This document shows positions 1 to 35,939 of a DNA stretch of 37,617 bases, piece by piece. Numbering within the stretch: the first letter of the stretch is position 1; each line of letters starts with the position of its first letter. This DNA is from Geoglobus sp. (GTDB taxonomy: Archaea > Halobacteriota > Archaeoglobi > Archaeoglobales > Archaeoglobaceae): positions 1 through 37,617 of the forward strand of contig WAMS01000081.1 in assembly GCA_015522195.1 (NCBI GenBank), read 5' to 3'. The notes beneath the pieces were generated by a model. It had not been told where the DNA came from. It ran no database searches and saw nothing but the letters and a program-made list of their open reading frames with translations. The translations under genes and the position numbers were made by a program.

Positions 1-1721
1 ATTGCAAAATCTGCAGCTGTTTCCGGAAAGGACCAGAGAACAAGACTGGGTCTGAAGAAAAATACGAAGGGTATTATAAATAATCCTGCACCGATTTTCA
101 GAGACTCCCTGACAACAGAGATAAATGAAGCCTTGGAAATCGATGATGCCACTGCACAGCATATTGCAACGGGCGGTGTTATTGCTGATATAACTGCAAA
201 GTAGAGTATAAAGAGGTGACCGACAAGAGGATTGACACCGCTAACCTGTATCAGTGGTGGTGCAACTATGCTTGCCACAAGAATATAAGCAGCCACTGTT
301 GGCATACCCATCCCGAAAATGATGCAGGTTATGGCGATGAGAATAAGAAGAATAAAGAGACTTTTTCCACCGAAGGATATGATCAATGTACCGAAGGTGT
401 GGGGGAGTCCGATTATTGAGAGGGTTGTGATTATTATGCCTATGGATGCAAGTATCGGTGCCATTTCAGCCGAGGTTTCTGAACCGTATTTCAGCCCTCT
501 CCTTATCTCTTCCAAAAACGATGAAACTGGAATCTTTCTGTAAAAAAGTTTGTACGGGGTTTCAATTATCAGCAAACTTATGAGAGACACAATTGTACTC
601 ATCATGGGGTCAAATTTCCAGAATACAAGAGTATATGCAAGGACACCCAGGGGCAGTATGAACCTTGTACCTTCCAGAAAAACTCTCTTGTTGATGGATT
701 TTTTGATTTCTGTGCCCGCCATCCATTCATTTTTCCTCACGTAAAAATCCACTGAAATTGCTACTGATGTGTAAAACAGCAGGGCAGGAATTAAACTTCC
801 TATCATAACCCTTGCGTAGGTAATGCCAAGAATGTCTGCCATGACAAATGCGGCAACCCCCATTATCGGTGGCATTATCTGACCACCTGTTGAAGCCACC
901 GATTCTATTCCACCCGCCACTTCCCGAGGGATCTTCTTCTCAATCATAAGGGGAATTGTAAAAGAACCTGTTGCGGCTACGTTTCCAGCCTGTGCACCGC
1001 TGATCTGACCCATCAGCATGCTACCCACAACAGCAGTCTGGGCATATCCGGATTTCAGCTTGTGAGAGATCTCAAGGGCAATGTTCTTGATTAAATCAAA
1101 TGCTCCGAATCCTCTGAAAAACCCAGCCAGTAGCAGAAAGGAAAAAACCCATGTCGCACCTATCCTCAGCAGATTTCCGAGGGCTCCTGAAAAGGAAATT
1201 GTGTTGTAGAATATTATGTATTCCAGACTCAACCCTCCATGACGGAAGATTCCCGGCACCATGTAGCCGAAATAGGCATAAATCAGAACAGCCAATACAG
1301 CAATGGTATAAACCTTCCCGTACCGTCTCCATGATGCGTCAAGAACCAACACCATGATCAGAAATCCAACGAGCAGATCAATCAAACCGAAATCCAGATT
1401 GCTTATGTAATCGAGCCACGTGTAATAGTTTAACACAACATACATTGCCAGAATAAAACTCGCCAGAGAAAGTGATGAAAAGAGCATCACATCGGATTTT
1501 GTTCTGTCTTTTTTCTGGAACAATATCTGCATGTAGAACAGCAGGAGGGATATTCCAAGCCAGATCAGTGCATACATTTTGATGGGAATTGGTCTGAAAA
1601 GTACAAAATAGAAAAAGTAAAGCGGAAAGGTGGTTGCGATAACTTCGATGATTTTGCGATATGATGTCAGGCTGACGTATTTTCCTGAAAAATTGGAATT
1701 AAAAAATAAATTTATCTTCAT
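1..1721 (-). CDS. TRAP transporter fused permease (TAXI type), partial
   Basis: Membrane permease of a TRAP importer with the small (4TM) and large (12TM) subunits fused, as is usual for TAXI systems. It would use an ion gradient to import the substrate delivered by the receptor encoded just upstream. The minus frame is open from the ATG at 1721 to the window edge (573 codons) and the C-terminus is missing. It is almost entirely hydrophobic helices. The large-subunit signatures are visible: MGQISGAQAGNVAATGSF, then GGQIMPPIMGVAAFVMAD, and near the end AITPPVAICCAV. The start lies 15 bp after the receptor stop, so the two are co-transcribed, and the UbiD gene is next upstream. Substrate specificity cannot be read from the permease; the neighbours suggest a carboxylate that is later decarboxylated. 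Confidence 0.9.
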   Translation of the reverse strand, partial: MKINLFFNSNFSGKYVSLTSYRKIIEVIATTFPLYFFYFVLFRPIPIKMYALIWLGISLLLFYMQILFQKKDRTKSDVMLFSSLSLASFILAMYVVLNYYTWLDYISNLDFGLIDLLVGFLIMVLVLDASWRRYGKVYTIAVLAVLIYAYFGYMVPGIFRHGGLSLEYIIFYNTISFSGALGNLLRIGATWVFSFLLLAGFFRGFGAFDLIKNIALEISHKLKSGYAQTAVVGSMLMGQISGAQAGNVAATGSFTIPLMIEKKIPREVAGGIESVASTGGQIMPPIMGVAAFVMADILGITYARVMIGSLIPALLFYTSVAISVDFYVRKNEWMAGTEIKKSINKRVFLEGTRFILPLGVLAYTLVFWKFDPMMSTIVSLISLLIIETPYKLFYRKIPVSSFLEEIRRGLKYGSETSAEMAPILASIGIIITTLSIIGLPHTFGTLIISFGGKSLFILLILIAITCIIFGMGMPTVAAYILVASIVAPPLIQVSGVNPLVGHLFILYFAVISAITPPVAICCAVASSISKASFISVVRESLKIGAGLFIIPFVFFFRPSLVLWSFPETAADFA

Positions 1722-1736
1722 AAAAAATCTCAAATT

Positions 1737-2771
1737 TTATACTATGGATCCAATTTTCAATTCTGGTCTCCAGATTCCTTTTTCTTTGAAAAATCTCGCT
1801 GCTCCGGGATGAACTGTAATATCGGGGCTCAGCAATCTGGTCCAGAAATCAGGTTCCGTCCACGGTTTGAATGCTTTGTGATATTCAGGAAGCTTTTCTT
1901 TGTTGTCCCAAATTATATTCAGGAAGTTGTAAATTGTCTCTTCCTTAACCAGACTGTTGGAATAGATGCAGTAGGAACTTTCAAGCACGAATGTTTCACC
2001 CTCTGTTGGAAACTCTTTAACTCCACCAAAAACCTCGTTTGGTACCCATCGACCGTTAATACCTGGAGTTTTTTCAATTGCCTTTATATCCTCCTCTGTA
2101 AAGCCCACAAGTCTCAGATCAACGCTTGAAATCAGTTCTTTCTGGTAGCTTGGAATTATGCCGTTTATGTTTGCGGGTCCACCTCCGGCATCTATGATAC
2201 CTGCTCTGATATTTCCTGCAAGCTCAGAAACCTCAACATCCACCCACTCAACATTCTTTACTCCTGCAACGCTCAGAGCCTTCTGATACTCTCTTGTGAA
2301 CGTGGCAGCCAGAGGACCTGGACCTACCTTTTTACCCTCCAAATCGTGGATTGTGTATATATCACTGTCAACCGGAGCAAAAACCGCAACCCAGATCCAG
2401 TACCAGCTTGTTACCTGCATCAGCGGATACTCTGAAGGTGTTGTAAAAAATTCCTCACCCTTCATGGCATTGTAGGCAACATAGGCACTTCCCGTAGCAA
2501 GATCCAGTTCTCCTCTTCCGACCATTGCCATGCCGCTCAGAGATTTTCCAGCTTCAGGCAGAACTATCACTTCTCTGTTTTCTTCCTTGGTTATCGTTCC
2601 GATAGTACTCCCCATTGCAAAGCCAATTGATTCTGGCGGTCCTGAAATGAATTTCAGCCTAACCTGCTCTGTTTCAGTGCTTTTTTGTCCGCACCCCACT
2701 ATGGAAACTCCTGACAGTAAGGATGCCCCAACTGCAATATTTTTCAGAAACGTTCTTCTCCCAAATATCAT
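1737..2771 (-). CDS. TAXI-family TRAP transporter solute receptor, Tat-type lipoprotein
   Basis: Extracytoplasmic substrate-binding protein of the TRAP system, 344 aa. The N-terminus has a twin-arginine pattern (GRRTFLK, residues 4-10), a hydrophobic stretch, then a lipobox ending in Cys27 (SIVGC). It is therefore probably exported folded and lipid-anchored on the outer face of the membrane. The mature part has TAXI features: GPPESIGFAMGSTIG near the start, the GELDLATGSAYVAYNAMKG region, and the VGPGPLAATFTREYQ block that contacts carboxylate ligands in this family. A strong ribosome-binding site (AGGAGGTG) precedes the ATG. The gene begins 19 bp after the UbiD stop and 15 bp before the permease start, giving the order UbiD, receptor, permease. 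The ligand is unknown. Confidence 0.9.
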   Translation of the reverse strand: MIFGRRTFLKNIAVGASLLSGVSIVGCGQKSTETEQVRLKFISGPPESIGFAMGSTIGTITKEENREVIVLPEAGKSLSGMAMVGRGELDLATGSAYVAYNAMKGEEFFTTPSEYPLMQVTSWYWIWVAVFAPVDSDIYTIHDLEGKKVGPGPLAATFTREYQKALSVAGVKNVEWVDVEVSELAGNIRAGIIDAGGGPANINGIIPSYQKELISSVDLRLVGFTEEDIKAIEKTPGINGRWVPNEVFGGVKEFPTEGETFVLESSYCIYSNSLVKEETIYNFLNIIWDNKEKLPEYHKAFKPWTEPDFWTRLLSPDITVHPGAARFFKEKGIWRPELKIGSIV

Positions 2772-2790
2772 AATTTACACCTCCTTTCTA

Positions 2791-4272
2791 TCACCACACA
2801 TTCCGGAACACATCTGAGAACCTGTTACCGCCCAGTCCATATGAACTCCATTTTTCATCAACAGTTTTCCTTGTTTTCTCATCAACCTGTATGGTCGGAG
2901 GGTATCTCCTGTTGTTCCATTGATTTACTGGTGGAAAATCAGGATTCCATGGCCAGGTGGCATCTATAAGAATCTTGGATGTGAATCCTCTCCATTCAAC
3001 GGGTACAGATGGATCGAGTACCGATCCGGGTTTTTTTCTCAGCACGACCCATTCTTCAGGTTGAGATCTCCAGTGAACTGCCCAAAGTATCTCTCCGAGA
3101 TCCGTTACATTGATGTCTTCATTGGTCACAATGACCATCTTTGAGAACTGAGCATACTTGCTTGCAAGAATTGCTTCTCCAACTTCCCTTCCATGCTGGG
3201 GATAGGACTGTTCGATGGAAACTGCTATGAGTGTTGCACCTGTGGATGGATGAACGTAAACGTCCCTGATGCCGGGCATGCCAACTGTATCGAGATGATG
3301 CTTTATCATTGCAGATTTCGTCAGTGCCCAGAGTGTATGATTTTCACACGGTGGAGTGGAGAGATAGCTTCCCCTGAATATGGGATCCTCACGGTATGTG
3401 ATGCACTTTACCTTTATCACAGGTCTTAAGGCGGTCTCACCTCCATAATATCCCGTCCACTCTCCAAATGGACCTTCCGGTTTTAGATCATCAAAAGAGA
3501 CCTCTCCCTCAATCACGAGCTGGCTTGAGAGTGGTACCTTGAGATCACTTGTTTCACAGTCCACAATCTTCACAGCCTCCTGCCTCAGAGCACCTGCAAT
3601 GTCGTATTCAGACTGTCCGTATGGGAATGCCTCTGCACAGGCTGCAGAGATCAGCTCATCATGGCCTATACTGATGGCAACAGGCATCGGCTCCCCTGCT
3701 TCAATATATTTCCTCAGGTGAATCATGCCGTGATTTCTTGGGTTTATCATGATACCGAGTGTTTTTCTGTCGTGGAGCATTATCCGATACATTCCAAGGT
3801 TCATCCACCCGTTCTCAGGGTCTTTTGTGATGACCGCATGCCAGGTTCCCAGATACCTTCCTCCGTCCATGTAATGCCATTTTGGAGCCGGAATTTCCAG
3901 CAAATTGACATCATCGCCAGTCAGCTTTATTTCTTTAAATTCGGCGTCCTTCCTTGTTGTTTTTGGCTTTATCGGGTGCTTAACCCTCTCCCTGAACACA
4001 TCAATTAGTTTGCGTATACCGGTCGTCCTGGGGAGACCCATTGCAATTGACTGTGCTGTGGGTCCGGCAAAGCCATTGACAAAAAATCTCCAGTTCGGAT
4101 ATCCTCTGATGCTATTGAACAGCACCGGTGGAAGATCTGCAGGATACGTTTTGTTCAGTCTGTCGACCACACCTCCAATTTCCAGATCCCAGTTTACCTC
4201 TGCATTTACCTCAAACAGCACGCCCTCGTCTCTCAGTTTTTCAATGTACTCTCCGATGTCCTCAAATGCCAT
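2791..4272 (-). CDS. UbiD-family decarboxylase (prenylated-FMN dependent)
   Basis: Reversible (de)carboxylase of the UbiD/Fdc/aromatic carboxylase superfamily, 493 aa, the usual length. The family uses prenylated FMN made by a UbiX enzyme (not in this window) and acts on aromatic or alpha,beta-unsaturated acids. Visible family blocks are the start MAFEDIGEYIEKL, the IAMGLPRTTGIRKL region, DPENGWMNLGMYRIM in the prFMN/metal-binding half, the hallmark EGPFGEWTGYYGG (about residues 266-278, carrying catalytic acids), and the C-terminal oligomerisation part. The gene has its own TATA-like box about 28 nt upstream of the ATG, so the mRNA may be leaderless. It heads a unit with the TAXI receptor and permease. 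The substrate cannot be assigned; phthalate-, benzoate- or acrylate-like acids are all possible. Confidence 0.92.
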   Translation of the reverse strand: MAFEDIGEYIEKLRDEGVLFEVNAEVNWDLEIGGVVDRLNKTYPADLPPVLFNSIRGYPNWRFFVNGFAGPTAQSIAMGLPRTTGIRKLIDVFRERVKHPIKPKTTRKDAEFKEIKLTGDDVNLLEIPAPKWHYMDGGRYLGTWHAVITKDPENGWMNLGMYRIMLHDRKTLGIMINPRNHGMIHLRKYIEAGEPMPVAISIGHDELISAACAEAFPYGQSEYDIAGALRQEAVKIVDCETSDLKVPLSSQLVIEGEVSFDDLKPEGPFGEWTGYYGGETALRPVIKVKCITYREDPIFRGSYLSTPPCENHTLWALTKSAMIKHHLDTVGMPGIRDVYVHPSTGATLIAVSIEQSYPQHGREVGEAILASKYAQFSKMVIVTNEDINVTDLGEILWAVHWRSQPEEWVVLRKKPGSVLDPSVPVEWRGFTSKILIDATWPWNPDFPPVNQWNNRRYPPTIQVDEKTRKTVDEKWSSYGLGGNRFSDVFRNVW

Positions 4273-4297
4273 AGTTTTTAATTATTAATCTGTATAG

Positions 4298-4326
4298 ATA
4301 TAAGACTTTTTACAGATGGCGTACGC
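4298..4326 (-). promoter_or_regulatory. Promoter of the UbiD-TRAP unit with upstream palindrome
   Basis: On the minus strand a TATA-like CTTATATCT sits at about 4298-4306, roughly 28 nt before the UbiD ATG (4272), consistent with a leaderless transcript. Immediately upstream is a perfect 8-bp palindrome, GCGTACGC (4319-4326), a possible regulator site. It resembles only loosely the CATACGTATG palindrome at 6261-6270. Confidence 0.45.
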
Positions 4327-4327
4327 A

Positions 4328-4528
4328 TTAAACCCTGACCATCTTTATCGGGAAATGAAAGCTTATTGCCTCTTCCAGACATTCGAGTCTGCACGCTCCA
4401 CAGTGCCAGCACTCGTCCGGATATCTGACGAAGGCTTTTCCATTATTGAGTCGAATCACATCTCCCGGGCATATCTCATAACAGTTTCCGCACCCTGTGC
4501 ACAGATCCCAGTTAATATGCGGAGGCAT
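4328..4528 (-). CDS. 2[4Fe-4S] ferredoxin, AprB-like
   Basis: Small iron-sulfur electron carrier of 66 aa. Two complete cluster motifs are visible: CTGCGNCYEICP (residues 10-21) and CWHCGACRLEC (residues 40-50). The second lacks the usual proline after the last cysteine (CL instead of CP). The layout, including the PDECWHCGAC block, resembles the beta subunit of adenylylsulfate reductase (AprB) but is much shorter. It lies 9 bp behind the FAD protein with a GGTGA ribosome-binding site, so the two almost certainly form a complex in which this subunit passes electrons to or from the flavin. It ends 55 bp before the UbiD start, which has its own promoter. A true AprB is unlikely given the size. 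Confidence 0.88.
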   Translation of the reverse strand: MPPHINWDLCTGCGNCYEICPGDVIRLNNGKAFVRYPDECWHCGACRLECLEEAISFHFPIKMVRV

Positions 4529-4537
4529 CCTCTCACC

Positions 4538-6202
4538 TCAGTAGGTGATTTTCTCGAACTCACATCTGATGGTTTCTCCATCTTTGTAAACCACAACCTG
4601 GCCGCACCACCTTTCATTATCTGAATTCGGGAAATCAAGTCTGTAATGATACGGAATAAATCTGCTCTCCCTTCTGAAAAGAGCAGCATGGGCCATGATC
4701 ATCCCGACAGTAAGAAGATTTTTTGATTCGTAAACCCTCAGAAGCTCATGACCGTCCGATGCCATGAGTTGGTCTGCATCTTCTTTTAGAGACTCGAGTT
4801 TCCTGATACCCGCTCTGAGACCGCTTTCAGTTCTGAATGGACCAACGTGCTCTGCCATTATTTTTCTCAAGACATCCTCAAATTCAATATAGCTGATACC
4901 ATTGCTGATTGAGAGAGGTTTGAGAAACTCATCAATTGCATGCCTGATTTCTTCTTTTTTAACAGATCCACTGGATTTTGCATTCCTTGCATAATCAAGT
5001 GCATTTTTTCCCGCAGCATATCCACCGGTTACCGCCATGTGCACACACCTCATCTGGTCACTGCAATCTCCTGCTGCAAAAAGTCCGTCAATTGATGACA
5101 TGCAGTTTTCATCGATTTTTATTCCACTGCCCACAACCTCGGAAGGTCCGGCCTGCATCCCCTCAGAGACAGATATTTCAATGAACTCCTTGGAGATGTC
5201 AATTTTTTTCGATTCGAAGAAGTCTGGGAGGGTATCTTTGTCAAGAGCCAGGGTCTTAACAAGGTGTTTCAGCCTGTCTTCAGGTATCTCTGTACAGTCC
5301 AGGTATATAGGACCCCTGCCTTCCCTTATCTCGTTCAGACAGGCATATACCAGAACATTTCTCGGTGCTCTGTCACCCAGTTCATGATACCTTTCCATAA
5401 AATACTCTCTGTTTGAATTGATGAATCTTGCACCAAGTCCAACAAATGCATTCAATCCGGGTGCACTGAAACCCTTTGGAACAACGGTCATCCTGACAAA
5501 TTCCATATTGGCAAGTTTTGCCCCTGCGTTGAAAGCAAGAGCCTGCCCGTCTCCGGTGTTATATGGACACAGCCAGGTGTTGAATGGCATTCCGGTTGGG
5601 GTTTCAAAAAGTCTGTTTGTATTTCCTGTTGCAATTAAAACTGCTCTGGATTTTATGAAGTAGAACATTTCATCCCTGTAGTTGAATGCAATAATTCCAG
5701 CAACCCTGTTATGGTTTTTCAGTATTTTAACAGGAATTGTTCTGTTAAATGTTTCGCAGCCAACCTTTCTGGCATACCTCGCAAGCTTGGGTTTTAGGTT
5801 CTTTCCATTAAAGTTTATCCAGTATGGCCCCGGAGCACCATATGATTGAGTTCTGAAGAATCTTCCATCCTTTCCATAGAGTGGGTTTCCGATTTTCTCC
5901 ATTCTGGTGATGGCTTCTTTCAGTTCATCACAGAAAACCTTCCTGTGTATTTTGAGATTTACAACACCATAGGATAGCTTTTTCACATAACTGAGGAAGG
6001 ACTCCTCTGTATCCCATTCATCATTCTGATTCAGGTAGGCCATGAAGTGATCTACCCCTCCCGCAATGCAACCGCTCCTCTTAACATTCCCCTTTTCAAC
6101 TACGATTACCGAACCATCTCTTTCTCCAGCTGCAATTGCTGCATTGAGTCCTGCAAGCCCACCGCCAATAATCACAACGTCGGATTCAAGCTCCTCATAC
6201 AC
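4538..6202 (-). CDS. FAD-dependent oxidoreductase, AprA/fumarate-reductase-flavoprotein family
   Basis: Flavoprotein of about 554 aa. The N-terminal Rossmann FAD site is VVIIGGGLAGLNAAIAAGE with an acid at the end of strand 2 (VVEKG), followed by a fumarate reductase/AprA-type capping domain. GLFAAGDCSDQMRC plus the following GGYAAGKNAL is the second FAD-contact block. RSGCIAGGVDHFM replaces the usual substrate-side glycine motif, so the substrate probably differs from fumarate or APS. I chose GTG at 6202: a GGTGA site (6208-6212) is 5 nt upstream and a TATA element lies about 48 nt upstream. A longer reading to 6304 would run through the promoter. It is partnered by the diferredoxin 9 bp downstream and lies divergent to the regulator at 6279. 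The likely role is reduction or oxidation of the substrate or product of the neighbouring UbiD enzyme; this is inference. Confidence 0.85.
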   Translation of the reverse strand: MYEELESDVVIIGGGLAGLNAAIAAGERDGSVIVVEKGNVKRSGCIAGGVDHFMAYLNQNDEWDTEESFLSYVKKLSYGVVNLKIHRKVFCDELKEAITRMEKIGNPLYGKDGRFFRTQSYGAPGPYWINFNGKNLKPKLARYARKVGCETFNRTIPVKILKNHNRVAGIIAFNYRDEMFYFIKSRAVLIATGNTNRLFETPTGMPFNTWLCPYNTGDGQALAFNAGAKLANMEFVRMTVVPKGFSAPGLNAFVGLGARFINSNREYFMERYHELGDRAPRNVLVYACLNEIREGRGPIYLDCTEIPEDRLKHLVKTLALDKDTLPDFFESKKIDISKEFIEISVSEGMQAGPSEVVGSGIKIDENCMSSIDGLFAAGDCSDQMRCVHMAVTGGYAAGKNALDYARNAKSSGSVKKEEIRHAIDEFLKPLSISNGISYIEFEDVLRKIMAEHVGPFRTESGLRAGIRKLESLKEDADQLMASDGHELLRVYESKNLLTVGMIMAHAALFRRESRFIPYHYRLDFPNSDNERWCGQVVVYKDGETIRCEFEKITY

Positions 6203-6228
6203 CTCAATCACCCAGATTATCCATCTCA

Positions 6229-6278
6229 ATACGTAATGATAAAAAATTTTATATGCGTGACATACGTATGCCAGATGG
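6229..6278. promoter_or_regulatory. Divergent promoter and candidate operator between flavoprotein and regulator
   Basis: A central AT-rich element (6247-6255, TTTTATATG; CATATAAAA on the other strand) can serve as TATA box in both directions. It is about 26 nt from the regulator ATG at 6279 (leaderless) and places the opposite start site near 6224. A perfect 10-bp palindrome, CATACGTATG, lies at 6261-6270. A second ATACGTA core lies at 6229-6235, giving two related sites flanking the TATA region. This arrangement suits a small dimeric repressor controlling both itself and the flavoprotein-ferredoxin pair. Confidence 0.6.
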
Positions 6279-6827
6279 ATGAATGATATAAGGAGACTCA
6301 ACACAACCCTCTCTCTCGAAGCCTATAGAATACTCGAAAAATACAGAGAGGAATATGGTTCTCAGAAAAAAACGATTGAGGCTGCACTTCATCTTCTCGA
6401 TAAGGACAGATGCAGATTGAAATCGGATCATGATCGAATATGGTTTGCAATAAGGGAGGAGCTGAATGGTGTTGCAATTGGAAAACAGCTGCTGAGGTAT
6501 CTGATAGAAAATAAAAAAGAGGAAGCTCTTAAGAGCAGATCTGTCGATAGGATAGTTGAGTGGATGATCAAAAAACCAATAGAGGCTGAAAGCAGGGACA
6601 ACATCATCTCTGCACTGAAACTGATCTATGAGGCCACCAACCTTTTTGAACACATAGATGTTGTTCAGGAGCCTGACGGGACATACAGTCTTACATTTTA
6701 CCATTCACTTGGGATGGATGTGAGCAGGTTTTATTCAGAATATTTCAGGTATTTCTTTTCTGAGAGAGTTAAGGCAGATGTTAAAACTTTCGTGAGAGAC
6801 AGTCATTTTATTCTTTTTGTAAGGTAA
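6279..6827 (+). CDS. Ribbon-helix-helix-like transcriptional regulator
   Basis: Protein of 182 aa that I infer to be the local regulator. Residues 5-40 fit a ribbon-helix-helix: a short strand (RRLNTTLSL), a helix (EAYRILEKYREEY), a turn, then a second helix (KTIEAALHLLDK). The remaining 140 residues are mostly helical and end in a mixed region (FYHSLGMDVSRFYSEYFRYF) that could be an effector-sensing or dimerisation domain. I do not recognise a named family for that part. The ATG is about 26 nt from the shared TATA, so translation is probably leaderless. It is divergent to the flavoprotein operon and convergent with the glycosylase gene at 6880. The target sites are probably the TACGTA-core palindromes in the 76-bp intergenic region. 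Confidence 0.65.
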   Translation: MNDIRRLNTTLSLEAYRILEKYREEYGSQKKTIEAALHLLDKDRCRLKSDHDRIWFAIREELNGVAIGKQLLRYLIENKKEEALKSRSVDRIVEWMIKKPIEAESRDNIISALKLIYEATNLFEHIDVVQEPDGTYSLTFYHSLGMDVSRFYSEYFRYFFSERVKADVKTFVRDSHFILFVR

Positions 6828-24689: not shown

Positions 24690-24941
24690 TTATCCTCCAG
24701 CTCTCTTGTAGATCAGTCTTTCTCTGAATTTTTTAAGGAGGTCATCTTCCGGAAATCTCACCTTGTAAAGTTCAAGACCAAAACATGACATGCCATGGTA
24801 CTCCACATCTATTGTCCCTCTCTCTGTTTCGAATCTGTTTTCATGCTCCACAAATTTAATTTTGAGTTCTTTCAAAACCTCTGCGATGAGCTCGATAATT
24901 TCCTCTTTTGTTATGCCGCATATCGCCTCTATACAACACAC
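24690..24941 (-). CDS. Small protein of unknown function downstream of radical SAM gene
   Basis: About 83 aa from GTG 24941, with AAGGA seven nt upstream, overlapping the end of the radical SAM gene by 13 nt. A longer ATG start at 24968 would overlap by 40 nt. The protein starts VCCIEAICGITKEEIIELIA with two early cysteines, then a helix, then a short beta region (RGTIDVEYHGMSCFGLELYK) and a basic C-terminus. I do not recognise a family. The tight linkage suggests it works with the radical SAM maturase and aldehyde ferredoxin oxidoreductase, or is at least co-expressed with them. Confidence 0.6.
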   Translation of the reverse strand: MCCIEAICGITKEEIIELIAEVLKELKIKFVEHENRFETERGTIDVEYHGMSCFGLELYKVRFPEDDLLKKFRERLIYKRAGG

Positions 24942-26062
24942 CTCGCTATCCTTGAGCTGTAAAGACATTCAGAGCACGAAATCTTGTTTGCATAGCAGTC
25001 TATGTTCTGTTTTGCATACCAGCATCCTGATACGTAAGGACAGTCTGCACACCATGGAAAGCTGTCATCCATGTTTTTCCTGAGTCTCTCAAATTCCAGC
25101 TTGTTTTCAAATGCATCATCAATGCCGTCTTTTTTGAGATCTGCAAACACATACTCGTTCACGATCTTGAGATGTTCGTTGACGAATTCCTGGTGGGTGT
25201 AGGCAAAACTCATGCACGAACTGACCTTTCCGTCGACTCTCACAAAAATCATGTCCTCGTATGGACACTCTCTTGCTCTTGAATCTCCGAAAAACTCTGC
25301 CCTCTCAAAATCAATCCCGTATTCCCTTGCGATATCCATACTATCCTCAACAATTTTTTCCGCATGTCTTGCTTTTCTGATTCTGTCTCTCGACTCAACT
25401 ATGTAAGGGATATTTACAGAATATCCATGACTGTATATTTTTCCTATCAGGTTCTTATAGGCTTCCTTGAACCTTCCCTTACCTCTGCTCCAGTCCTTTA
25501 TTGCTGAAAGAATGAATCTGTCATCAATGTCTGAGATCATATCCACATTGAACCTGCTCCCCTCAAAATACAGAATTTTCCTGTAGATCTCCTCATCTCC
25601 TGCCACAACATTTGTGAGCTGAACATCTGCTCCACTTTCAGCAGAAATCCTGACAAGTTCAGGCAGAAAATTTATGTTGTCTGAGGTGACAACGATCTGG
25701 GTGATCGCCTTTTCTCCGGCGAGGTCAAGCTTCTCCTTTAGCTTCTCAAACACAAGCCCCCTTCTGTGTCTGGCATCAAAATCAAGAGAAATGGCAACTC
25801 TGTCAACCATCTCAAAAACCTCATCAAAAATGCCATTCACCATACCGTTTGTACTTATCAGGGTTTTTCCATTTATTGTCCTGAGATACTCCTTAAGATT
25901 CGGGTTCAGGAGAGGTTCACCATAGCCGTAGAGGATTATTTCGTCAGCGTCTGCAATCTTTTCAACGATATCCGGGGTAACATCAGAAAAACCGTTTCTT
26001 CTTCTGAAGCAGTATTCGCAATCAAGATTGCACGATGTGGTTACCTCGAGCTGAACCTTCAT
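24929..26062 (-). CDS. Radical SAM protein, tungsten-oxidoreductase maturase type
   Basis: A 377-aa radical SAM enzyme. The cluster motif is TTSCNLDCEYCFRR (CxxxCxxC, residues 11-18), with the SAM-contact GYGEPLLNP. The C-terminal domain has further cysteines, CADCPYVSGCWYAKQNIDC and CSECLYS, arranged as a SPASM/twitch-like auxiliary cluster domain. Proteins of this build occur next to aldehyde ferredoxin oxidoreductases and are thought to modify the enzyme or its tungsten cofactor. Here it lies 40 bp downstream of such an oxidoreductase gene, with its own TATA element (26087-26096) near the ATG. Alternative: another peptide-modifying radical SAM enzyme. Confidence 0.85.
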   Translation of the reverse strand: MKVQLEVTTSCNLDCEYCFRRRNGFSDVTPDIVEKIADADEIILYGYGEPLLNPNLKEYLRTINGKTLISTNGMVNGIFDEVFEMVDRVAISLDFDARHRRGLVFEKLKEKLDLAGEKAITQIVVTSDNINFLPELVRISAESGADVQLTNVVAGDEEIYRKILYFEGSRFNVDMISDIDDRFILSAIKDWSRGKGRFKEAYKNLIGKIYSHGYSVNIPYIVESRDRIRKARHAEKIVEDSMDIAREYGIDFERAEFFGDSRARECPYEDMIFVRVDGKVSSCMSFAYTHQEFVNEHLKIVNEYVFADLKKDGIDDAFENKLEFERLRKNMDDSFPWCADCPYVSGCWYAKQNIDCYANKISCSECLYSSRIARCVV

Positions 26063-26102
26063 TAAAAAATGGAAAGTCGGAAAGATGATATATACTTTTA
26101 TC

Positions 26103-27950
26103 CTAAGATATTCCCAGTTCCTTCAGCTTCTCTTCTGTTGGAATTCCGTTGATCCACCCTCTCAGTTTGTAGTACTCTTCCTTCATTTTCTCGAATTCAT
26201 CTCTCTTTATTACCTCTCCCTTCGTTGGGCCTGTTGGCAGTGGCTCCTCAAACAGTCTTCTTGGCAGCGTGTCATCCTTTGCATCGAAGCCATATTTGTT
26301 TATTATCAGTCTTTCAAGGTTGTATATCCTCTCACCTATGGTCAGAATATCATTGGCCGAAATGTCCCAGCCTGTTACGGCAGAAAGCAGTACAGCATAG
26401 TCATCAGCCCCCAGAGCAAAGGTCGTGAACAGGCAGTTTACAGTTGAGTTGACGGTGCATGTGAAGTCCTGGAAAACCTTTGCCCACTGGGCCTTGCCCT
26501 CATATGTGAGAGGATCGATTTTTTCAGGCAGTCCGATTATCTCAGGACTCACAGTATAGCCGGTAACATGGCATCCTCCTCTGTTGGCTGTCGCATAATT
26601 CAGCCCAATGCCCTTTATACCTCTTGGATCGTAGGCCGGCATTTCAAGTCCCTTGACACTCATTGAAACATCCAAACCAAACATCTCGGCCATTCTCTTT
26701 GAACCGAGGGCAAGATACTTGCCTATGCCTATTCTGTATGCTGTCTTCCATACTCCATCAACCAGAGCTGCTGAGCTTCCAAAACTGTAGTCGATTCCCT
26801 GTGTTTCTGCATCCGTGATCTTCCCCTTTTCATAGAGCTCCATTGCACATGCAATTGCCGCGCCCATTGATATTGTATCCAGCCCCAGCTCATCACAGAG
26901 ATGATTTGCCTTGATTATTGCCTCAAGATCTATCACACCTGTATCATTTCCAAGACTCCAGATTGATTCATACTCGGGCCCCTCAGAGTCACTGACCTGA
27001 AATGCTCCTGATTTAACAGAGGTTGCCCTTCCACATGCTATCGAACATCCCCAGCAGGCATGGTTTCTGTCCAGATATTTTTCAGCAAGGGTTTCACCGC
27101 TTATGTCGTTTGCCTTTTCATGATATGCATACTGCCAGTTCCTGTAAGGCAGGGCACCGCTCTCATTTATCACATTAACAAGAACGGCAGTACCGTAGTT
27201 TGGTAAACCCTCTCCAGTTACAGGATTCTGCTTGACCTTATCAAGAGCCTTCTTTGCTGCCTCTCTGAATTCATCTTCCTTGGCTATTTCAGGTCTGAAA
27301 TTTCCTCCGGCAACTATTGCCTTGAGCATTTTGCTTCCCATTACAGCTCCAACTCCGGTTCTACCAGCAGCTCTGTGATTGTCATTGATTATTGCTGCAT
27401 AGTTTACTAAGTTCTCTCCTGCAGGACCTATGCACGCAACACTCACCTTCTCCTCATACCTTCTTTCAAGAGCTGCAGTTGTATCAAATACATTTTTTCC
27501 CCACAGATCGTTTGCTCTTCTTAATTCTGCAACTCCATCTATTACCTCAAGATACACAGGCTCGGATGATGCCCCCTCAACCACAATCATATCAAAGCCT
27601 GCAAATTTCAGATACGGACCCCACTTTCCACCACTGTTTGCCGAGCCTATGGCACCTGTCAAGGGACTTCTCAGCGTCATAACATGGTATCTCCCAGATT
27701 CAGGAAAACCTGACACGCCAGTAGCTGGACCGGTTCCAAAGATGAGAACGTTTTCCTCACCGAAAGGGTCTATGTCTCTGGCGGCAATTCCATCCTTCTC
27801 ATATTCCTTCAGATACTGCCAGAAGAGATACACAGAATACCCTTTTCCACCCAGAAACTTCTTTGCAACATCTTCGTCCACATCGATAACATCCAAGGAG
27901 CCACTTGAAAGGTCCACTCTCAGTATACTCCCCATAAAACCGTTTTCCAT
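26103..27950 (-). CDS. Aldehyde ferredoxin oxidoreductase family protein (tungsten)
   Basis: A 615-aa enzyme that oxidises an aldehyde (or reduces an acid) using tungstopterin and a [4Fe-4S] cluster, with ferredoxin as electron partner. The N-terminal domain has GFMGSILRVDLSSG and LGGKGY. The pterin-binding block is GAVMGSKMLKAIV. Cluster cysteines are in CWGCSIACGR (CxxCxxxC, near residue 300) with a fourth in TVNCLFTTF. The EGPEYESIWSLG segment and GGCHVTGY are also family blocks. It has its own promoter (TATA at 27985-27992) and a GGTGATG ribosome-binding site 6 nt before the ATG. A PAS histidine kinase is upstream and the maturase downstream. The physiological substrate is unknown. Confidence 0.95.
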   Translation of the reverse strand: MENGFMGSILRVDLSSGSLDVIDVDEDVAKKFLGGKGYSVYLFWQYLKEYEKDGIAARDIDPFGEENVLIFGTGPATGVSGFPESGRYHVMTLRSPLTGAIGSANSGGKWGPYLKFAGFDMIVVEGASSEPVYLEVIDGVAELRRANDLWGKNVFDTTAALERRYEEKVSVACIGPAGENLVNYAAIINDNHRAAGRTGVGAVMGSKMLKAIVAGGNFRPEIAKEDEFREAAKKALDKVKQNPVTGEGLPNYGTAVLVNVINESGALPYRNWQYAYHEKANDISGETLAEKYLDRNHACWGCSIACGRATSVKSGAFQVSDSEGPEYESIWSLGNDTGVIDLEAIIKANHLCDELGLDTISMGAAIACAMELYEKGKITDAETQGIDYSFGSSAALVDGVWKTAYRIGIGKYLALGSKRMAEMFGLDVSMSVKGLEMPAYDPRGIKGIGLNYATANRGGCHVTGYTVSPEIIGLPEKIDPLTYEGKAQWAKVFQDFTCTVNSTVNCLFTTFALGADDYAVLLSAVTGWDISANDILTIGERIYNLERLIINKYGFDAKDDTLPRRLFEEPLPTGPTKGEVIKRDEFEKMKEEYYKLRGWINGIPTEEKLKELGIS

Positions 27951-33878: not shown

Positions 33879-34073
33879 ATGCCAGGAATAATACCCCACA
33901 GACACTGCATTGTCTGTGGCAAGGCGATTGAGCTGGAAGAAGTGTTTTGTGGAAAGGAATGTGAGCAGAAGTACGACGAGGACAGAAAAAAACAGAGGAA
34001 TTACATTGTTTTCATGTTTGCAATGCTGTTTGGGATACTCTTCCTGATGATGTTTTCAAATTTCGGTGGCTGA
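33879..34073 (+). CDS. DUF2116-type zinc-ribbon membrane protein
   Basis: A 64-aa protein. The N-terminal zinc ribbon has CIVCGKAI and CGKEC (with a preceding HRH), followed by a charged linker and one C-terminal membrane helix (YIVFMFAMLFGILFLMMF). The type is common in archaea, function unknown. I chose ATG 33879 because TTTTTTATAG lies about 25 nt upstream (leaderless). The last 18 nt overlap the convergent TyrA-AroQ-PheA gene. Confidence 0.75.
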   Translation: MPGIIPHRHCIVCGKAIELEEVFCGKECEQKYDEDRKKQRNYIVFMFAMLFGILFLMMFSNFGG

Positions 34074-35939
34074 AGCAGCACCAAAAACGTCAAGACTTTC
34101 AATCTTTTTGAAAACACCTGCAATTTTGCAGAATGTGGTTCTGATTTTCAGCTGTTCCACAACCTCTTCATCAAGTCTTTTTTCAGCCTCTGCAAAGAAC
34201 ACGTAATCTCCCAGTCTGCTGCCTGAGGGTCTGCTTTCAAGCTTTCTGAGATTTATCCCGTGTTTGTAGAAAACTTCAAGAACGCTGTAGAGCGCTCCCG
34301 GTCTGTCATCTACTCCGAAAAATATGCATGTAATCTCTCCATTCTCTGAATCCCCATCTGGTCTCCTGATTATATAGAATCTTGTTCTGTTGGGTGTTTT
34401 AGTGTGTATGTCTCTTTTGATAATGTGGAGTCTGTAGAGTTTTGCAGCAAGCTCAGATGCTATTGCAGCTGAGGTCTCATCAAGCATCTCTATCGCCTCA
34501 CTTGTGCTCCTGGTGTATCTTATTTCGGCATGGGGAATGTAGTTGTTTATGAACTCAGAGCACTGTGCTATTGCCTGGGGATGAGAGAATACTGTTTTTA
34601 TTTCCTTCAGACTCAGATTTCTCTTTCCAACAAGATTGTGCCTTATTTCCGATTCGTATTCGGCAAAAACCTCAACTTCGTATTTCATGAGAGAGTCAAG
34701 GGTCTGGATCACGGTGCCGTGCAGGGAATTTTCAACAGGAATCAGCCCAAAATCTGCATCACCGGTTTCAACAGCCTTGAACACATCCTCAACACTGTTC
34801 CGGTATATTATCGGGAGTCTGGATCCAGCAAGTCTCAATGCCGCCTCTTCTGTGTAGCTCCCATGGGGTCCAAGAACTGCAATCTTCTTTCTGACACCGA
34901 GAGTTCTGTATTCCTCTTCCTTTGTCAGTTTCATTATATTTTCAAATATCTCGGATACATAAAGGGGATTCAGTGATGTCCTGCCTGTGATTTCCCTGAT
35001 CTTCACATCTTCAATCTGAGCTATCTCAACAGGCTGATTGAGTTTTCTCTTTTCAAGTGCAACCTTTTTGCCTGCAAAAACCCTTCTCTCCACAAGCCTG
35101 AGAATCAGAGAATCGAGAGCCCGGATATATCCTCTGAGCTCATCTATGCTCTGAACCTCAACCGTTGCCTTGTACGAATCCAGGATGAATGTCGAATCTT
35201 TATAGTTGCTGAACTCTTTTCTGAGATCTTCCACAAGTGTTCTGAAGTTTTCCCTGTCTTTCAGTATTTCATCGAGGAGTCTTGCATTTTCGATTATTTC
35301 AAGTCTTGTTTTTTCTGCATTATTCAGAATATGGTAGTACATACTCCAGTCCTGATTTATTATCCGGCTTGCAAGCTTGTGCAGTATTAGAAAAATCGGT
35401 GAGGCAATCTCATATTGATTTTTGAACCTGCCTCTCAGGGTGAGAGCAAACAGGAAAAGGAGAAAATGTGCGGTTCCCTGAATTTCTGCCATTTTTCTGT
35501 CATGCTCACTGTAGGACAGATTTGAAATAATTGCTCCTGCTTTTCTGAACTCCTCCAGAATGGCATCCTCTTCATGCCTGCCACTTCGCTCAACAACAAC
35601 TATGTTTGAGAGGCCTATCTCACTTTCGGGACCGAACATGGGATGAATGCTCATGTACTGGAGGGCATGACTCTCAAGAAACGGGATAGAAGTTGATTTT
35701 ATTGTTGCAATATCAACAACAAGAGCTCCCCTGTTCAGCTCAGCAATCTTTTTCACAGCCTCTTCAATTGAATCCATTGGGACGCAGAGAAAAATAACAT
35801 CAAAATCTGTCACTTCTCTTTCCTCTATTTCGCTCAGATCACTGTTGATGTCGTAGCATCTGACGTAATATCCTCTTGCAGCAAAAAAATCCCTGAATAT
35901 TCTTCCCATACCTCCCATTCCGTAAATCAGAATCTTCAT
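34056..35939 (-). CDS. Trifunctional prephenate dehydrogenase/chorismate mutase/prephenate dehydratase
   Basis: A 627-aa fusion carrying out both branches from chorismate to the phenylalanine and tyrosine precursors. Residues 1 to about 250 are TyrA: the nucleotide loop LIYGMGGMGRIFRDFF and the HPMFGPE segment. Residues about 260-345 are the AroQ helical mutase (SIDELRGYIRALDSLILRLV). Residues about 355-530 are the dehydratase (KIAVLGPHGSYTEEAALRL, with the PNRTRFYII threonine motif). Residues about 540-625 are an ACT domain with GALYSVL and the ESRP motif that binds phenylalanine, so feedback inhibition is likely. This exact order is known in Archaeoglobus. It starts within the aroD stop (ATGA). 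Confidence 0.95.
   Translation of the reverse strand: MKILIYGMGGMGRIFRDFFAARGYYVRCYDINSDLSEIEEREVTDFDVIFLCVPMDSIEEAVKKIAELNRGALVVDIATIKSTSIPFLESHALQYMSIHPMFGPESEIGLSNIVVVERSGRHEEDAILEEFRKAGAIISNLSYSEHDRKMAEIQGTAHFLLFLFALTLRGRFKNQYEIASPIFLILHKLASRIINQDWSMYYHILNNAEKTRLEIIENARLLDEILKDRENFRTLVEDLRKEFSNYKDSTFILDSYKATVEVQSIDELRGYIRALDSLILRLVERRVFAGKKVALEKRKLNQPVEIAQIEDVKIREITGRTSLNPLYVSEIFENIMKLTKEEEYRTLGVRKKIAVLGPHGSYTEEAALRLAGSRLPIIYRNSVEDVFKAVETGDADFGLIPVENSLHGTVIQTLDSLMKYEVEVFAEYESEIRHNLVGKRNLSLKEIKTVFSHPQAIAQCSEFINNYIPHAEIRYTRSTSEAIEMLDETSAAIASELAAKLYRLHIIKRDIHTKTPNRTRFYIIRRPDGDSENGEITCIFFGVDDRPGALYSVLEVFYKHGINLRKLESRPSGSRLGDYVFFAEAEKRLDEEVVEQLKIRTTFCKIAGVFKKIESLDVFGAASATEI

Follow-up and report, generated by a model that had tools for sequence, protein, structure and literature searches.

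The closest described relatives of the flavoprotein considered here are AprA, the FAD subunit of the adenosine 5'-phosphosulfate (APS) reductase AprAB, and MtPAPSR, a 3'-phosphoadenosine 5'-phosphosulfate (PAPS) reductase; SdhA and FrdA stand further away. Trp42 of MtPAPSR has been proposed for electron transfer (PMC10322725). We analysed a window of 37,617 nucleotides, i.e. the whole stretch of DNA, which is one entire contig (WAMS01000081.1, C81) of the 1.65-Mb, 149-contig genome of a thermophilic member of the Archaeoglobales. The first 6.8 kb of the window encode five minus-strand genes in the order FlavoA–FdxB–UbiD–TAXI receptor–fused TRAP permease with a divergent regulator alongside, where FlavoA denotes an FAD protein of the AprA/FrdA superfamily and FdxB its ferredoxin partner. 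The module is made of known parts built around an unstudied flavoprotein family. Our analysis favors, tentatively, a regulated peripheral catabolic module that would import a (hydroxy)aromatic-type acid and feed a decarboxylated phenolic product to the phenylphosphate pathway. The preliminary description of this cluster had named the same genes at the same places, and the Pfam and NCBIfam matches agree with it for all genes but the regulator.

FlavoA and FdxB

FlavoA (4538..6211, minus strand) has the Pfam domains FAD_binding_2 and Succ_DH_flav_C, and its best NCBIfam matches are far below the cut-offs. It scores 172 bits against the aprA equivalog cut-off of 642, and FdxB (4328..4528, minus strand) scores 36 bits against the aprB cut-off of 136. 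A profile of 19 FlavoA members finds MtPAPSR first (1e-97), AprA next (1e-62) and SdhA after these. The AlphaFold model of FlavoA (pLDDT 88, pTM 0.90) is a predicted structure similar to 8a8o (MtPAPSR) with TM score 0.87 and to 1jnr (AprAB) with TM score 0.86. The AprB-like FdxB matches Fer4 and has eight Cys in two clusters of four, the pattern of a 2[4Fe-4S] ferredoxin. The start codon of FlavoA is probably the GTG at 6211 rather than the listed start at 6304, since the latter overlaps the regulator.

The substrate residues of the known enzymes are missing in FlavoA. N74, E141, R265 and R317 of the A. fulgidus AprA, which we take to be the APS-binding residues, align with M61, P131, V248 and a hydrophobic residue of FlavoA. 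The profile alignment to 1nek gives no aligned equivalents in FlavoA for the active-site residues H242, R286, H354 and R399 of the E. coli SdhA. FlavoA belongs to a coherent family of its own, and because the substrate residues of both enzymes are missing, it is neither an APS/PAPS reductase nor an SdhA/FrdA. Its members share the motifs RxGxxxGGxDHFxAYL, INFxGK and PKGFxAxGxNA together with FdxB or importer/decarboxylase neighbors, and the new invariant residues include D58, H59, N137, K141 and G251-F252. APS/PAPS reductase and fumarate reductase were both considered as identities for FlavoA and are ruled out by the active-site residues. The earlier expectation that FlavoA acts on a small acid as the AprA/FrdA relatives do thus loses its ground.

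The residues of the electron path are kept. The FAD-contacting Trp206 of MtPAPSR corresponds to W217 of FlavoA, and Trp42 of the MtPAPSR beta subunit corresponds to W41 of FdxB (in the motif ECWHCG), an AprB-type Trp that is invariant among the FdxB proteins. Because these Trp residues are kept while the AprA and SdhA substrate residues are not, FlavoA-FdxB probably moves electrons between two clusters and FAD as AprAB does, on another substrate. The kinship with MtPAPSR and AprA, the closest solved relatives, and the AprB-like ferredoxin could also be read as a sulfur reductase of the APS/PAPS or sulfonate type that lies by chance beside a transporter and a UbiD. We consider this very improbable: the residues at N74, E141, R265 and R317 are replaced in FlavoA whereas MtPAPSR keeps the catalytic residues (PMC10322725), no sulfur-assimilation genes were recognized at the FlavoA loci examined, and decarboxylase and importer partners recur.

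Neighbors of FlavoA across genomes

We collected 31 FlavoA genes from Archaeoglobi, Desulfobacterota, Chloroflexota and others, and counted as partners an importer (TRAP/TctA) or a decarboxylase-type gene (Amidohydro_2 or UbiD) within six genes. The controls were 20 loci of ~30%-identical flavoproteins, all from the archaeal order. An importer is found at 22 of the 31 FlavoA genes versus 3 of the 20 controls (Fisher p 1e-4), a decarboxylase-type gene at 23/31 versus 1/20 (p 1e-6), and both together at 20/31 versus 1/20 (p 2e-5); the p-values are indicative, as the FlavoA set includes partial and near-duplicate loci, e.g. L064/L065 and L057 g13/L071. The counts support the link between import, flavoprotein redox chemistry and decarboxylation that had been proposed for the window.

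In bacteria the decarboxylase-type gene resembles those for ACMSD and resorcylate decarboxylase, whereas archaea have UbiD in this role. The bacterial loci have the order GntR - TAXI - TRAP - Amidohydro_2 - FlavoA - FdxB and often continue with a second Amidohydro_2 and an acetylene-hydratase-like Mo/W enzyme (best PDB match 2e-97). Such Mo/W enzymes adjoin FlavoA at L061:12854-14977, L059:3228-5375 and L065:19334-21409. The bacterial amidohydrolase that we tested has its best PDB matches in ACMSD (1e-40) and gamma-resorcylate decarboxylase (2e-37), and also matches the 5-carboxyvanillate and salicylate decarboxylases. The metal and catalytic His/Asp positions are largely kept in these amidohydrolases, as are most of the ligand residues, with one subgroup missing the first His, and we infer that they are decarboxylases. 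Resorcinol/resorcylate was considered as the substrate from this homology, and nothing beyond the homology speaks for it. A reductive-dehalogenase family protein (TIGR02486 over the cut-off; L065:16069-17214) and a URO-D protein are encoded in the FlavoA operon of two Desulfobacterota metagenome-assembled genomes (MAGs).

The archaeal loci share roles more than genes. The loci of JdFR-42 and S009_4 encode three UbiDs, a TrmB regulator, a HAD phosphatase and a CTP-dependent riboflavin kinase domain. The phosphatase and the kinase domain lie within the triple-UbiD/FlavoA operon of the sister family (L034:4467-5490, L033:7718-8829) and may provide a local supply of FMN, hence perhaps of prenylated FMN (prFMN). 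FlavoA is 67% identical between the archaeal loci versus 37%, 29% and 33% for UbiD, TAXI and TRAP, and the FlavoA-linked UbiDs occupy separate lineages in the UbiD tree. By these comparisons the genomes keep FlavoA but exchange UbiD, TAXI and TRAP, so the fixed six-gene set expected in related archaea is not borne out and the set is not conserved as such. Since like roles have been assembled repeatedly from different genes around FlavoA, we read the association as function rather than chance.

One may argue that UbiD-TAXI-TRAP and FlavoA-FdxB form separate units that just happen to be neighbors. The gaps within the window operon are 9, 55, 19 and 3 bp, and the 55 bp lie between fdxB and ubiD, where a second promoter for UbiD-TAXI-TRAP is possible; moreover, JdFR-42 and S009_4 differ in gene order. 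But distant lineages have equal roles around FlavoA, filled by partners that are not orthologous, and in S009_4 and JdFR-42 TRAP directly adjoins FlavoA or shares a few bases with it, which makes independence unlikely. The 55-bp gap (window 4272-4328) has an A/T-rich stretch similar to TTATATCTATA and the palindrome GCGTACGC.

FlavoA is encoded in only 3 of the 57 genomes of the order that were searched, i.e. the window genome, JdFR-42 (two copies) and S009_4, and in the identical three of the 394 genomes of the phylum. A scan of named genomes found it in Chloroflexota, Desulfobacterota/Myxococcota, Gammaproteobacteria and Actinomycetota MAGs, and 6/395, 2/400 and 11/85 genomes of three bacterial groups encode it, in samples that included seed genomes. 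Spread by plasmids was considered and set aside, as no FlavoA match was found among 72,556 plasmids. The archaeal FlavoA sequences group in a single clade with full support, and their nearest relatives are bacterial (support 97/97), which is consistent with one transfer from bacteria into archaea, under a tree rooting that is not firm. Two JdFR-42 contigs (L032:12989-13089, L033:12994-13094) both end inside FlavoA copies with an identical 101-bp stretch and with the identity fading upstream, which we read as an assembly collapse of the two copies, perhaps after gene conversion.

The phenylphosphate link and the proposed route

The window UbiD (2791..4272, minus strand) has UbiD_N, UbiD and UbiD_C all over the cut-offs, scores 324 bits with TIGR00148 (cut-off 245) and matches PDB 7pda (1e-69). 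Its E-R-E catalytic residues R163, E266 and E271 are intact (YR and EGPFGE), and it is below every equivalog cut-off, including the VdcC model and the phenylphosphate carboxylase beta model TIGR02724 (241 bits, cut-off 469). The TAXI receptor (1737..2771, minus strand) has a lipoprotein-like N-terminus (SGVSIVGCG), an NMT1_3 domain and 106 bits with TIGR02122 (cut-off 84); the solved TAXI receptors in PDB are only distant relatives (E 1e-9 to 1e-10). Three bp away, the fused DctQM-type TRAP permease (3..1733, minus strand; 577 aa) has DctM (PF06808) and 404 bits with TIGR02123 (cut-off 321), so both genes of a TAXI-type TRAP importer pass their models. The 3' end of the permease is cut at base 1 of the contig (profile 4-537 of 615), and as it runs off the contig end, the operon may continue beyond it.

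Another contig of the window genome, C38, encodes PpsA/PpsB-like phenol-phosphorylating proteins, a benzoate-CoA-ligase family protein, UbiX for prFMN supply (TIGR00421 265 bits) and a UbiD that is a phenylphosphate carboxylase beta (TIGR02724 559 bits). This phenol cluster or its core is found in 9 of the 57 genomes of the order, including 3/3 of the archaeal FlavoA genomes (p 0.003, ignoring phylogeny). The FlavoA operons of two bacterial loci, L061 and L091, have homologues of PpsA (61-62%) and PpsB (46-49%) as immediate neighbors, and the L061 operon also adjoins a UbiD 46% identical to PpcB. It is because the phenol pathway shares genomes and loci with FlavoA that we propose a peripheral route to a phenolic product. 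The cluster had been described as lacking a CoA ligase, which is true for the contig and not for the genome; since another contig encodes a benzoate-CoA-ligase-family protein and a phenylphosphate carboxylase, the cluster is more likely to supply the classical route than to stand in for it.

A UbiD working as a carboxylase, or a module running biosynthetically, would be in line with the reversibility of UbiD enzymes and with the related UbiDs of the same genomes that match phenylphosphate carboxylase beta, but the window UbiD scores far under that cut-off and a dedicated acid importer argues for acid uptake and breakdown; we regard this as quite unlikely.

In the module that we favor, TAXI-TRAP would use an ion gradient to take up a carboxylate of aromatic type, probably a hydroxylated one. 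FlavoA-FdxB would form a heterodimer shaped like AprAB that carries FAD and two [4Fe-4S] clusters, and would change either the acid or its decarboxylated product by two electrons, most likely by reduction with electrons from ferredoxin. UbiD, supplied with prFMN by the UbiX of the genome, would take off CO2, a step that the ACMSD/resorcylate-decarboxylase-like amidohydrolase would perform in bacteria. The phenolic product would then pass into the route of phenylphosphate synthase, phenylphosphate carboxylase and benzoate-CoA ligase, whose genes lie elsewhere in the genome. The substrate class (aromatic-type acid), the electron direction and the order of the steps are inferred.

Several points weigh against this module. 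All controls come from archaea, in which Amidohydro_2 and TAXI genes may be less common, and the loci share ancestry. No importer or decarboxylase was recognized near eight or nine of the FlavoA genes, some of which lie at contig ends and some of which have ABC-type importers instead. TctA importers stand at three bacterial FlavoA loci, which suggests non-aromatic tricarboxylates in some cases. Moreover, a plain hydroxybenzoate-to-phenol conversion requires no redox step, and the phenol link alone leaves the role of FlavoA unexplained. Compared with a monohydroxybenzoate, the acid would hence be more oxidized, more hydroxylated or partly reduced, or FlavoA would act after the decarboxylation.

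The TctA tricarboxylate-type permeases at these three loci and the FAD_binding_2 / Succ_DH_flav_C superfamily of FlavoA also fit an aliphatic, tricarballylate-like route, in which a di- or tricarboxylate is imported, FlavoA desaturates or reduces it as FrdA/TcuA do, and UbiD decarboxylates the unsaturated acid. We rate this route as unlikely, given that the four SdhA active-site residues have no aligned FlavoA equivalents, that sequence and fold place FlavoA nearer to PAPS/APS reductase than to SdhA, and that the neighbors in L061 and L091 are phenol-pathway genes. A bolder extension of the aromatic-acid module, doubtful at present, is that FlavoA-FdxB represents a catalytic class new to the AprA/FrdA superfamily, a reductase driven by ferredoxin whose CoA-free attack on the ring of a phenolic or aromatic acid is coupled to interchangeable UbiD or ACMSD-type decarboxylases, and which is common to thermophilic archaea and anaerobic bacteria.

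The module is probably also regulated, as had been supposed. The regulator (6279..6827, plus strand; 182 aa) matched no Pfam or NCBIfam family, and its N-terminus suggests a ribbon-helix-helix type. A second FlavoA copy of JdFR-42 (contig C11, 77% identical to the window FlavoA) has a divergent regulator ortholog 68% identical to it, and the intergenic block TACGTA-N6-GCATATAAAATTTTTTATCATTnCGTA (6230..6268, minus strand) aligns with 35 of 39 bases identical between the window and JdFR-42. The block sequence has one exact match in the window with 0 expected, and has a TATA-like box between half sites of the TACGTA type, which makes it a putative operator. It is the conserved regulator and block together that support the regulation.

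Overall, the first reading was right in outline as to import, redox and decarboxylation, which is partly supported, and wrong on the fixed gene set and on the implied independence from CoA chemistry. The analysis defines an uncharacterized flavoprotein-ferredoxin family whose neighbors consistently point to organic-acid import and decarboxylation; its hosts are anaerobes that live in hot, marine and sediment settings, and the family is tied to the phenol pathway. The gene set is defined, the bacterial operons of L061 and L091 are complete and the receptor lends itself to ligand screening, so that the acid and the chemistry are directly testable. Our literature searches, with incomplete coverage, found no description of a FlavoA import-decarboxylation module.

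The contig and the comparison with known systems

The rest of the contig encodes archaeal housekeeping functions, including the DNA primase small subunit, shikimate genes (3-dehydroquinate synthase II and prephenate enzymes) and tRNA-Thr, and the GC content is 0.438 in the cluster versus 0.422 in the remainder. The contig does come from an archaeon of the Archaeoglobales. We considered whether the genes adjoin by chance or the MAG contig is a chimera, and the housekeeping genes, the near-equal GC and the single archaeal FlavoA clade rule this out. The window also encodes a 627-aa fusion of prephenate dehydrogenase, chorismate mutase and prephenate dehydratase with an ACT domain (34056-35939), and an aldehyde ferredoxin oxidoreductase adjoining a radical SAM/SPASM protein (24929-27950).

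The flavoproteins reported for anaerobic benzene activation are, like FlavoA, iron-sulfur flavoproteins proposed for anaerobic aromatic attack, but they are of the glycolate-oxidase / VAO-PCMH type with a different fold (PMC13101534, PMC13416013). The PpsAB-PpcB pathway of Archaeoglobales and Desulfobacterota accompanies the module in all three archaeal FlavoA genomes and adjoins it in L061 and L091, whereas it has no TAXI-TRAP or FlavoA of its own and would stand downstream. The UbiD decarboxylases of the hydroxyarylic acid type and phenylphosphate carboxylase beta share the three UbiD domains and the E-R-E motif with the window UbiD, which differs from them as a divergent single-gene lineage with <=40% identity to any relative in the order. 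SdhA, FrdA and L-aspartate oxidase have Pfam domains and superfamily in common with FlavoA, but their catalytic His and Arg are not conserved in it and no membrane/heme subunits are encoded at the locus. The nearest likeness is to AprAB (1jnr) and MtPAPSR (8a8o), in the fold of the FAD subunit (TM score 0.86-0.87), the small 2[4Fe-4S] partner with the AprB-type Trp and the soluble heterodimer plan. FlavoA-FdxB differs from both in its replaced substrate residues (N74->M61, E141->P131, R265->V248), in an FdxB of only 66 aa, and in neighbor genes that are importers and decarboxylases rather than sulfur genes.

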